Below are positions 38,362 through 42,203 of a stretch of 64,000 nucleotides of DNA, one piece after another; within the stretch, counting starts at the first letter, position 1; every line of letters starts with the position of its first letter. The position numbers and the translations under genes were made by a program. This stretch comes from Aliarcobacter thereius LMG 24486 (GTDB lineage: Bacteria > Campylobacterota > Campylobacteria > Campylobacterales > Arcobacteraceae): NCBI RefSeq assembly GCF_004214815.1, contig NZ_CP035926.1, positions 496,001-560,000 on the forward strand. The letters run 5' to 3'. A model generated the notes under the pieces. The model did not search any database. It was given only the letters and a program-made list of their open reading frames with translations, and was not told the origin of the DNA.

Positions 38362-39423
38362 TTGCAAATTCAAAGGTATTTAAATCATTCAAATATTGAT
38401 GTCTATTTTAAACAGAGTAAAGATGATTTTGTTGTTCATGAAGTACCACTTTATGAATTTAGTAAAGAAGGAGAACATCTTATTTTAAAGCTAAGAAAAA
38501 AAGACTTAGCAACTTGGGATGCAATAGAGATTTTGGCAAATTTTTTAAAATGTAGTCCAAGAGAGTTTGGATATGCTGGATTAAAAGATAAAAATGCAAT
38601 GACAGTTCAACATATTTCAATACATAGAAAATATGAAGAAGCTTTAAAAGAGTTTAGTCATGAAAATATAAAAATTCTTGAGACAACATATCATAACAAT
38701 AAGATAAAAATAGGGCATTTAAAAGGAAATAATTTTTTTATTAGATTAAAAAGAGTTGGTCTTGTAGAAAAACAGAAAATAGAAGAAGCTTTAGGAAAAA
38801 TTGCTACTTTTGGAATGCCAAATTATTTTGGTTTTCAAAGATTTGGAATTGATGGTGAAAATTATAAAAAAGGTAAAGCGATAGTTGAAGGAGATTTAAA
38901 AGAGAGAAATAGAAATTTAAAACAGATGTTTATAAATGCTTATCAAAGTTATCTTTTTAACTCTTGGCTTTCAAAAAGAATAGAGATTTCAAAACTTATT
39001 GACTCTTTTGATGCAAAAGAAATTTATGAAAAATTAAATTTACCACTAGAAGAAGTAAAAAGAGCAAAAAAACAGCCACATCCTTTTAAAATTTTTACAG
39101 GAGATTTATTAAGTCATTATCCATTTGGAAGAATTTTTATTATTGATGATTTAGAGATAGAGAGTCAAAAGTTTTTTGATAAAGATAGAGTTCCAACAGG
39201 TCTTTTATCTGGAAAGAGAGTTAAAAAAAGTGAAGCTTTTGCACAAAATATTGAAAAAGAATTTGATGTAGAAATGAGTGAAGATGGAGCAAGAAGGTTT
39301 GCATTTATTTTTCCTGAAAATATTGAAAGTAATTATAAAGAAGACAAAAATCATATGGAACTTAATTTTTATCTTCCAAAAGGTTCATACGCAACAGAAC
39401 TTATAGCAGAGATTTTACACTAG
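38362..39423 (+). CDS. truD: tRNA pseudouridine(13) synthase
   Basis: TruD makes pseudouridine 13 in tRNA-Glu and a few others. The 353 residues contain the catalytic motif FGYAGLKDKNAMTVQ (Asp in LKDKNA), KIGHLKGNNFFIRLKRV, GMPNYFGFQRFG, and a C-terminal LNFYLPKGSYATELIAEIL, all diagnostic. The TRUD insertion domain is shortened, as in Helicobacter and Campylobacter. The start is TTG at 38362, eight bases after AAGGA; no upstream ATG exists in frame. It forms an operon with thiL. Confidence 0.95.
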   Translation: MQIQRYLNHSNIDVYFKQSKDDFVVHEVPLYEFSKEGEHLILKLRKKDLATWDAIEILANFLKCSPREFGYAGLKDKNAMTVQHISIHRKYEEALKEFSHENIKILETTYHNNKIKIGHLKGNNFFIRLKRVGLVEKQKIEEALGKIATFGMPNYFGFQRFGIDGENYKKGKAIVEGDLKERNRNLKQMFINAYQSYLFNSWLSKRIEISKLIDSFDAKEIYEKLNLPLEEVKRAKKQPHPFKIFTGDLLSHYPFGRIFIIDDLEIESQKFFDKDRVPTGLLSGKRVKKSEAFAQNIEKEFDVEMSEDGARRFAFIFPENIESNYKEDKNHMELNFYLPKGSYATELIAEILH

Positions 39424-39473
39424 CTTAAGAACTTTTAAGATAGTATCAATGTTTAAATATACAAGGAAAATAA

Positions 39474-39836
39474 ATGAGATACGAAGAGCTTATTACAGAA
39501 CTTTGTGAAGTTATAAAAGAGACTGAAAATGATGCACAAGGTATTCTTGATAATAGTGAAAATATGGAACAAATACTTGAAAGTATGCATCTTCCAAAGA
39601 GAAAAAAAGATAAACTTATTGAAGCTATTTCAAATATTTATGGTTTTTTACAAAGACAAGATTTACATAGACAAAAGATTGAAAGAGTTGTGAATTTTGT
39701 TTGTGATAAAAATGATATTGATAAAACACAATATAATTTAGCTCCTATTGCAAAGAATATAAGTTATTCTCCATGTTGTGATGAAAATATGAGTTCAGAA
39801 GAGTTAGAATTACTTATAAGAAGTATGCAAGGCTAA
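39474..39836 (+). CDS. Small CheZ-like CheY-P phosphatase candidate
   Basis: A 120-residue, mostly helical protein. Helix 1 (about 3-36, with ETENDAQGILDNSE) and helix 2 (about 42-77) would form a hairpin. Helix 2 carries RQDLHRQKIERVVNFV, where Asp63 and Gln67 have the Asp-x3-Gln spacing of the CheZ catalytic residues (Asp143/Gln147 in E. coli). The C terminus, SSEELELLIRSMQG, resembles the CheY-binding tail of CheZ after a disordered link containing CysCys. It is half the usual CheZ length. It converges on a chemoreceptor gene. CheZ-like function is inferred, not shown. Confidence 0.6.
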   Translation: MRYEELITELCEVIKETENDAQGILDNSENMEQILESMHLPKRKKDKLIEAISNIYGFLQRQDLHRQKIERVVNFVCDKNDIDKTQYNLAPIAKNISYSPCCDENMSSEELELLIRSMQG

Positions 39837-39873: not shown

Positions 39874-39905
39874 AAGTATAGATAGATTTCTATCTATACT
39901 TTTTT
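39874..39905. terminator. Bidirectional terminator between CheZ-like and chemoreceptor genes
   Basis: A perfect twelve-base stem (39874-39885 with 39890-39901) closes on ATTT and continues into Ts on the plus strand (to 39905). It overlaps the stop of the leftward chemoreceptor gene, so it can end both transcripts. Confidence 0.87.
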
Positions 39906-42075
39906 AAGATTTAATTTCATCAATCTTTTTAAAGAATTCTAAAGTAGTTTTCTCTACAATATTTGCTTTTATATTTAGTTGTTCAGCTTTATCTTTATTT
40001 GCATTTGAATCAACTAAATTTTGTAAGTTCTTATTTAAATCAGAATCAATTTTTCTAATATCATTTATTAACTCATGATCATTAATCGTAGAAGAAACTT
40101 CATTCTTATTTAACCATTCTAAAATTGTACTAGATTCATCAACTTTAAATTTTTTATAATTACCAAGTTTTGAATAAACAGCATCTTTTTTCTTAATAAT
40201 ATCAGTTTTTAATAATGCTGTATCATATACTAAATCGACATTGCTCACTTTATTTAAACTATCTTCTATGAAAGTAGTTCTTGAAGCAGCAGTTACAAGA
40301 TAACTTGATGTAGCAGCAATAGAAGATGCCATAACAGATATTTGATCAGCTACTTGAGCATTTTTTTGTGTAGATAGATCTAAAGTCCCAATTACATCAT
40401 TTATTTGTAATATTCCAGTTTCTTGCTCTTTTGAAGCAGCAGCTACATTTTCTATTGTAACAAGAGTGTTTGATATATTATTATTTAATTCTGAATAACC
40501 CTCAATCATATTATTAGCAATATTCTTACCTTCATTCGCTTTAATACTTGCTCTTTCAACAATATCTTTAATCTCTCTAGCTGCTTCTGCACTTCTTGCA
40601 GCAAGATTTCTTACTTCTTGAGCTACAACTGCAAATCCTTTTCCAGCTTCTCCAGCAGTTGCAGCTTCAACAGCTGCGTTTAAACTTAAAATATTTGTTT
40701 GGAATGCAATTTGGTCAATAACTTCAATTGCTTCATTTATAGAGTTTACTTGAGAATTAATTGCATCCATAGATTTTGCTGTTTCTTCTGCTAAAGTTTG
40801 ACCTTTTTTTGCAGAATTATTTAAATCATGAGTAAGTTTTGACATCTCAATCGTTGATTGAGTATTAGCTTGAATTGTTGCAGTGATTTCATCTAAAGCA
40901 GCAGCTGTTTCTTCTAAAGATGCAGCTTGTTCACTAGAAGAATTTTTCAAATTTAAAGAAGTTTCCGAAAGAGTTTGTGTACTATCTTTTAATGAATTAC
41001 CTGTATTCATAACAATAGCAAGAAGCTCAGAAGTATTGTTCCCTACAAGATTTATTCCATTTGTAAGAGAAGCTAAATTTCCATATATATTTTGGTCTTT
41101 TAAAATAAAGTCATATTTTGATTCAGCATAGTATCTTAATGCTTCATTGATTTTATCAAGAGTCTCTTTTGTTCTTTCAATCATTTGGTTTAATTTATTT
41201 TTTAAATCTTCAACATGTGGATTTGCAGCTGTATTATTTACTCTATATACGAAGAAACCATTTGCTGTTTTTTCTATTACATCATTTGCTTCTTCAATAA
41301 CTTTTTCGTCTTGAGCTAAACCTTCTCTTACTTTTTCCATATAAGAATTGAATAGATGAGCAACTTCTCCTATTTCATCTTCTGTTTTTACTTTTAAAGT
41401 GATATTTGTATCATTTGAGTGAAGTAAATCATCAAAACCTGACTTAAGGTCTTCTATTGGACTTGTAGCTTTTCTAACAATGAAGAATATTAAAATAATA
41501 GTAAATAATCCTAAAATTGTTGAAGATAGAGAAATTTCTTTTAAAAGAGATTTTATTTTTTTATCAGTTTCATCTAAAGAGAAAGTTAAATCCATTACAC
41601 CAATAACATCTCCAACTGATTGATTTGGGTGACAAGCCATACACTCATTTGTTGCTATCATTGGCTTAATCATTCTAATTGTATGCCCATTTTCATCATT
41701 TTTCTGAATAATTTGATTCTCTTTTGTAGCAAAGCTATCTAAAATCTGTGGATCTTTTGTAAAAGGAGTGTCTAAACCATAAAGTTCAATAAGTTCTTTA
41801 CTTTTCGCAACAGTTAACTGCTTAACTCCTTTTATATCTCTAGCATCTTCTTCTGCTTTTGCTATTAGATCTCTATCTCCTGTATTCATTGTATTTCTTA
41901 AAGTTTGAAATATGGATGCATTTAACATTGATAAATTATCTCTAGCATTTGCTATTGAATCTTCAGTAACTTTCGTTGTTGTTGAATAGACAATGAAAGA
42001 ACTACTTATAAACATAAGAACAAACAGAGCAAAAATGATTTTATTGCTAACTTTTTTTGTAATAAATTTAAGCAT
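39904..42075 (-). CDS. Methyl-accepting chemotaxis protein with c-type haem motif
   Basis: A 723-residue chemoreceptor. A membrane helix (about 12-30) leads to a periplasmic sensor (31-180) that contains CMACH at 145-149, a CxxCH c-type haem attachment site, in a DUF3365/Tll0287-like fold ([30 protein letters not shown]). A second helix (183-200), a HAMP domain and a methyl-accepting signalling domain with the hairpin [20 protein letters not shown] follow. It probably senses redox, a gas or haem state and signals to CheA. I chose the ATG at 42075 after GGAG; a TTG four codons earlier overlaps that site. Confidence 0.88.
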
Positions 42076-42203
42076 ACAACTCTCCAATTTTTTTAAGTCG
42101 ATTTATTATATACTTAAAAAGTTTAAAAGATTGTAATAAACTTATAAAAATTATAAATTACATAAATAAAAAGTAATAATATAACAAAATAAAGAGAGTA
42201 GAA

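Follow-up and report, generated by a model that had tools for sequence, protein, structure and literature searches.

What would a protein of 120 residues that resembles half a CheZ do next to a chemoreceptor gene, and does the genome that encodes it possess a complete CheZ as well? This question is raised by a stretch of 64,000 nucleotides of Aliarcobacter thereius LMG 24486 (the window), corresponding to positions 496001-560000 of a 1.92 Mb genome assembled as a single contig. An earlier note, made from the DNA letters, had pointed there to a 120-residue CheZ-like protein encoded beside a chemoreceptor gene and had proposed that it is a minimal CheY-P phosphatase of about half the usual CheZ length. 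The analysis reported here leads to the view that the gene probably encodes a second, shortened CheZ, which would act as a minimal CheY-P phosphatase in the chemotaxis circuit of the neighbouring chemoreceptor. The locus comprises the following features:

38362-39423, + strand: truD (tRNA pseudouridine synthase D), conserved as the neighbour on the upstream side (PF01142, E 1.2e-64)
39463-39467, + strand: AAGGA, resembling a ribosome-binding site, 6 nt ahead of the ATG (sequence, by eye)
39474-39836, + strand: short CheZ paralog, 120 aa (P0001; ORF, homologs and CheZ profile match)
39904-42087, - strand: chemoreceptor (MCP, 727 aa) that carries HAMP and, at residue 149, CMACH (profile scan and motif)

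The short CheZ frame (39474-39836, + strand) has an ATG start and 120 codons, begins 50 nt downstream of the stop codon of truD and is convergent with the chemoreceptor gene, whose product matched MCPsignal at E 1.3e-34 and HAMP slightly above its cut-off. The frame, its receptor neighbour and its reduced length were read correctly in the earlier note, the 120 aa comparing with 207-305 aa for full-length CheZ in other families and 274 aa for the full-length CheZ of the same genome. This arrangement is widespread: truD lies on the same strand within 600 nt of the short CheZ gene in 47/54 loci and a homologous MCP within the same distance in 40/54, some of the misses in both counts being contig ends. 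In these neighbourhoods truD, ruvA, MCPs and receivers were identified by profile scan, whereas thiL, ddl and similar labels in the synteny comparison are presumptive names assigned by eye. The CMACH of the window MCP is a CxxCH sequence, which we take to be a c-type-haem-like motif.

The motif behind the CheZ resemblance, Asp63 and Gln67 (D-x3-Q) within LQRQDLHRQKIERVV, proves little on its own, since 3809 of 10,000 shuffles of the short CheZ protein hold a DxxxQ; what exceeds chance is the conservation of the protein and its similarity to the profiles. A profile built on 27 full-length CheZ, all from families other than the Arcobacteraceae, gave the window protein 34.8 bits, whereas none of 1060 shuffles exceeded 13.4 bits and none of 53 reversed sequences exceeded 11.5. 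All 46 short homologs scored 33-77 bits (being mostly close kin, they are not 46 independent tests), the intermediate forms described below 92-146 bits (7/7) and the full-length CheZ of the family 158-187 bits (25/25). Additionally, 25 of 26 short homologs matched the CheZ model NF041271 at E<=0.01 (best 4e-8), and hhalign aligned the short form with the full-length CheZ alignment at a probability of 98.5. The 350-bit cut-off of NF041271 is missed by the short CheZ (20.1 bits) and by the full-length CheZ of the same genome (120.1 bits). The hhalign comparison of the short form with E. coli CheZ alone was not significant (probability 0.6, E 0.1), and that of the full-length Campylobacterota family with E. 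coli CheZ was weak (probability 7.8, E 0.0044). PF04344 (CheZ) was absent from the Pfam matches of the short protein and from the whole genome, in a scan whose control matched in E. coli and B. subtilis, above the cut-off in one; the short protein gave five weak unrelated Pfam matches, all under cut-off. Searching with the single sequence, 41/60 genomes were matched, own included, 35 of them from its own family and six from other families of the order, where the matching frames (229-285 aa) have the size of full-length CheZ; the closest named records with the short CheZ family belong to Arcobacter or Aliarcobacter. In 7/8 close pairs dN/dS was between 0.02 and 0.22, the eighth showing zero synonymous change, as expected of a conserved gene under purifying selection, which the short cheZ is on codon evidence. 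The CheZ-like identity claimed at the outset is therefore supported by the profile scores against both kinds of control, and these comparisons mark the short protein as a descendant of Campylobacterota-type CheZ.

Which parts of CheZ were retained is indicated by conservation and by a predicted structure, from which three features can be placed on the gene:

39480-39584, + strand: hairpin helix 1 (residues 3-37), which contains the EELIxxLCEVIKExE stretch (model, conservation and register)
39597-39710, + strand: hairpin helix 2 (residues 42-79), which contains Asp63 (39660-39662) and Gln67 (39672-39674), both of catalytic type (model and conservation)
39795-39830, + strand: C-terminal helix (residues 108-119), CheY-binding-like, SSEELELLIRSM (low-confidence model and sequence pattern)

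D63 and Q67 are invariant in 26/26 homologs, the count of 46/46 in the wider set of short rows being true by construction because selection required the motif (one row was rejected at this step, a 239-aa frame of L046 other than the CheZ frame). The AlphaFold2 monomer model, obtained with a 24-row alignment (mean pLDDT 80, pTM 0.59), comprises helices at residues 3-37 and 42-79 joined at 38-41, with ten-residue means of 84-95 over residues 1-80, followed by a linker of low confidence (<50 at residues 92-104) and a C-terminal helix at 108-119, for which confidence is low as well, with means of 54 and 67 over ten residues. The earlier claim of an Asp-x3-Gln motif in a helix hairpin is borne out by the homologs and by helix 2 of the model; the CheY-binding-like C-terminal helix it had described is kept for its sequence pattern, found in 45/46 short homologs (the exception, L032, stops at a contig end), the modelled helix there being of low confidence. 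The conserved helix-1 stretch EELIxxLCEVIKExE of the short form corresponds to VVxQLDxVTxxSE of full-length CheZ. On a helical wheel of helix 2, seven of nine invariant polar or Cys residues fall within 60 degrees of D63, this sector holding Q60, D63, R66, Q67, E70, N74 and C77; the invariant S53 and Q62 lie outside it and the non-polar L59 inside. Fold searches against solved structures returned generic helical hairpins, both with Foldseek (E >1) and with VIA-align (best Z 9.7), and CheZ was not among the matches listed in either. As a separate observation, Cys11 and Cys77 are invariant in 26/26 short homologs and each is present in 43/46 of the wider set, with equivalents in 0/7 intermediates and 0/53 longer CheZ rows; a metal or redox role of the pair is possible.

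Whether a full-length cheZ exists elsewhere in the genome, a check that the earlier note had proposed, can be answered positively: a 274-aa CheZ is encoded directly after a cheY-type receiver gene and before flagellar rod-type genes, that is, in a flagellar locus. This frame (L001 1396-2217) had no Pfam match at E<=0.01 and reached 120 of 350 bits with NF041271, so that automatic annotation may overlook it. Within the family, 104 genomes were compared, that of the window among them: 90 matched the short frame (partial or fragmented matches in G074, G118 and G122), 93 the full-length frame (weak matches in G074, G078, G096 and G121) and 87 both. In an order-wide sample of 298 genomes, 215 had a match; among the matches listed outside the family, frames were at least 217 aa long except for one of 177 aa (G293) and one of 178 aa (G153). 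These two genomes, which belong to other families, each carry paired adjacent CheZ frames (L087 2965-4185 and L088 2623-3865), one short in each; the pairs are perhaps independent duplications or broken copies. In a tree of 93 rows and 59 columns, flagged by the program for its small number of columns and for long branches that come together (L084 and L102 included), the short and intermediate forms made one group (99/99) and the full-length CheZ of the family another (100/100); the tree holding both groups together, as possible sisters, came out 4.04 log units above the free search (p-AU 0.64). It left out 13/46 short rows, all from the genus of the window, together with the L052 and L088 fragments and with L083 and L040, which have no helix-1 anchor. 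Taken with its distribution, the sequence grouping sets the short CheZ apart from the main CheZ as a paralog present across the family. As for other phosphatase families, PF04509 (CheC) gave no match in the window's genome and PF13690 (CheX) one sub-threshold match; in the A. butzleri genome paper, CheC is given as a CheY phosphatase of that species (PMC2147049).

How the paralog differs from an ordinary CheZ was expressed as the spacing between the anchor Glu in helix 1 (xVTxxSE in CheZ, xVIKExE in the short form) and the catalytic Asp. All 27 full-length CheZ from other families show a spacing of 90 residues, as do 20 of 21 anchored full-length rows of the family (25 rows in total), the remaining one reading 54, perhaps from a wrong anchor. 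In the short form it is 45 in the window protein and in 41/46 anchored rows, 48 in three and 37 in two, which points to a shortened paralog rather than to an ordinary CheZ. Rows of 151-180 aa read 49 in 6/8, then 54, and 71 (L087, from another family). No anchor was found in 5/51 rows of at most 150 aa (three of these being pieces of longer frames, from L052 and L088) and in 4/25 full-length rows of the family; the alignment register used for the tree placed full-length rows with the spacing of 90 taken as given. The intermediates (152-171 aa, seven in the family, spacing 49-54) follow truD in 6/7 cases (G109, G110, G101, G124, G126 and G069), and these six therefore look like positional orthologs of the short CheZ. 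The seventh, from G031 (161 aa), lies near ruvA with a flagellin gene (L085 4032-4856, - strand) in between, and truD was absent from the stretch examined around it. As read from the alignments, the spacings form a graded series (90 to 49-54 to 45), in which half of the hairpin span is gone and the catalytic part and the CheY-binding-like tail are kept. The loss was probably at the tip end, in both arms, with about 22 residues from each (some three heptads), as judged from the register and in agreement with the graded series; hhalign positions helix 1 closer to the tip than this register does. The N-terminal MTQEELDALM-like peptide, which presumably resembles the CheY-binding end of FliM, occurs in 0/46 short forms, 7/7 intermediates and 25/27 full-length CheZ of other families.

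These retained and lost parts bear directly on function. In H. pylori CheZ, removal of the N-terminal region (1-39) is reported to leave phosphatase function, C-terminal deletion to abolish it and D189/Q193 to be needed (PMC11237671). The short form has kept the parts reported as needed in H. pylori and dropped one reported as dispensable, which favours the phosphatase reading; its sequence makes a minimal CheY-P phosphatase the most likely function. The proposed mechanism would be as follows: two hairpins would assemble as a short bundle of four helices, a CheY-type receiver would bind at the C-terminal helix, and Asp63 and Gln67 would reach its active site, leading to removal of the phosphate. 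The Gln of CheZ places the attacking water. The likely substrate would be a CheY-type receiver sharing a circuit with the neighbouring CxxCH chemoreceptor. E. coli CheZ binds CheA-short through its hairpin tip, which gives polar placement (PMC7750401), and by analogy a tip-shortened form is probably untethered and would work without CheA-short docking at the pole; this point is only a guess, as polar CheZ in H. pylori depends on ChePep rather than on CheA (PMC11237671, PMC7750401).

Among the known systems most like it is the Campylobacterota CheZ (H. pylori type, NF041271), with which the short CheZ has in common the D-x3-Q with its HRQKIERV context, the helix-1 anchor, the linker and the C-terminal acidic-hydrophobic helix, and from which it differs by the spacing of 45 instead of 90, the lack of the MTQEELDALM peptide, the separate locus after truD and scores under the NF041271 cut-off. 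The full-length CheZ of Arcobacteraceae (the CheZ of CheYz in Mo et al., 2022, PMC9321776) shares family, catalytic pair and genome with it and differs in its separate tree group, its 274 aa and its QFNDINRQ context. In the accessible part of the same paper, five Arcobacter CheYs (F7, m, w, c and z) are described, CheYz being favoured for the motor, with a single CheZ beside CheYz and the roles of the other CheYs left open. E. coli CheZ (PF04344; P0002) has DLTGQ where the short form has DLHRQ, with equal catalytic spacing and a C-terminal CheY-binding helix, but gives no significant direct profile match. In Azorhizobium caulinodans CheZ the hairpin is also shortened about equally on either side of the turn; this protein differs in that the shortening amounts to only about 25 residues and in its longer N-terminal helix (PMC7750401).

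A link to motility is indicated by the distribution of the gene, since a short CheZ was found in 89/94 genomes with FliM and in 1/10 without it (Fisher p 7e-9, kinship ignored), and the sole carrier without FliM (G122) has a stop inside the short cheZ gene; five genomes with FliM are without a short CheZ, one of them being 54% complete. Separately, G121 (L086), which has no FliM match, holds a 183-aa CheZ-like frame without D-x3-Q, likely a relic.

As regards the CheY-type receiver that would be served, it counts against the main reading that there is no cheY beside the short CheZ within the window. In G097, G096 and G076, a receiver (PF00072), a CxxCH MCP (PF00015) and the short CheZ are found in a row on one strand (L082 2399-5342, L173 471-3404 and L174 742-3691). 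This row, present in three relatives from two genera, suggests that the short CheZ might be the phosphatase of a private receiver and not of the motor CheY, with receiver, CxxCH chemoreceptor and short CheZ forming one unit; it is a narrower form of the main idea, in which the receiver of the window's genome would be encoded elsewhere, and we regard it as a possibility to be taken seriously, if not the expected one. The MCP and short CheZ genes overlap in two of the three rows (G097 and G096; L082 and L173), and they overlap in G098 as well. The best match of the G097 receiver in the window's genome is a 125-aa receiver encoded beside another MCP (46%, E 1.1e-28), which resembles the CheYm class as described in the accessible part of Mo et al. 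(PMC9321776), and we infer that this receiver (L154) is CheYm. Against a private receiver, in most loci inspected the MCP gene is convergent with the short CheZ gene, with no operon; an MCP within 600 nt is lacking from 14/54 loci (from some of them through contig ends), the neighbour in G031 is a flagellin gene, and 6/16 genomes searched have no such receiver at E<=1e-20.

A broader proposal, that of a self-contained sensory branch in Arcobacteraceae, with a CxxCH (c-haem-type) chemoreceptor, a dedicated single-domain receiver and a dedicated untethered 'pocket' CheZ whose stalk has shrunk stepwise (90, ~49, 45) to a catalytic ring plus tail, is speculative and rather doubtful as a whole. If true, it would mean two CheY signals that are reset independently, at the motor and for a receptor that senses redox state or gas, and the short form would be the smallest working CheZ.

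Returning to the reading as a minimal CheY-P phosphatase, three further alternatives were weighed. Both forms occur in 87/104 genomes of the family and the hairpin is a dimerisation element in CheZ, so that a non-catalytic partner could be imagined, pairing with full-length CheZ or binding CheY-P and tuning the main phosphatase; this is unlikely, as D and Q are conserved in 26/26 homologs and a hairpin difference of 45 residues would be expected to misalign a mixed bundle. It is still less probable that the short CheZ serves a response regulator outside chemotaxis: the gene upstream of it in G071 encodes a PAS histidine kinase and truD, its usual neighbour, has no relation to motility, but the short CheZ is missing or broken where FliM is missing and an MCP adjoins it in 40/54 loci. 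A chance resemblance of an unrelated helical hairpin carrying D-x3-Q, for which the frequency of DxxxQ in shuffles and the five weak unrelated Pfam matches under cut-off might speak, is hardly credible with profile scores far over the shuffled and reversed controls.

The shortened paralog predicts a second route for shutting off CheY-P in Arcobacter-type bacteria, and together with the longer forms it provides a natural deletion series of CheZ, which suggests which part of the stalk is needed for catalysis and which part may serve docking. CheT of Sinorhizobium meliloti is a protein of small size. It has a DXXXQ motif and is predicted to fold like CheZ (Agbekudzi, 2024, via the review PMC12654446), and it speeds dephosphorylation of one of two CheYs; it differs in that it is reported to bind CheR and to be encoded within a chemotaxis gene cluster (PMC12654446). 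By this description it is the nearest parallel in function to the short CheZ. Because of CheT, the idea of an extra CheZ-like phosphatase serving one of several CheYs is not new. The new elements are the stepwise-shortened hairpin, the occurrence of a second paralog across the family and the gene row of receiver, MCP and CheZ; an additional short CheZ in this group was not described in a literature whose coverage was mostly open-access and without supplements, which makes this weak evidence.

As regards the chemoreceptor, a degenerate zinc-binding (CZB) tail had been suspected in the window MCP and received no support. The same protein scored weakly as Tll0287-like (17.7 bits against a cut-off of 24.1), and judging by its sequence it may serve taxis by sensing redox state or a gas through a c-type haem. 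The CxxCH motif recurs in the neighbouring MCPs of L075, L081, L082, L084, L173 and L174.
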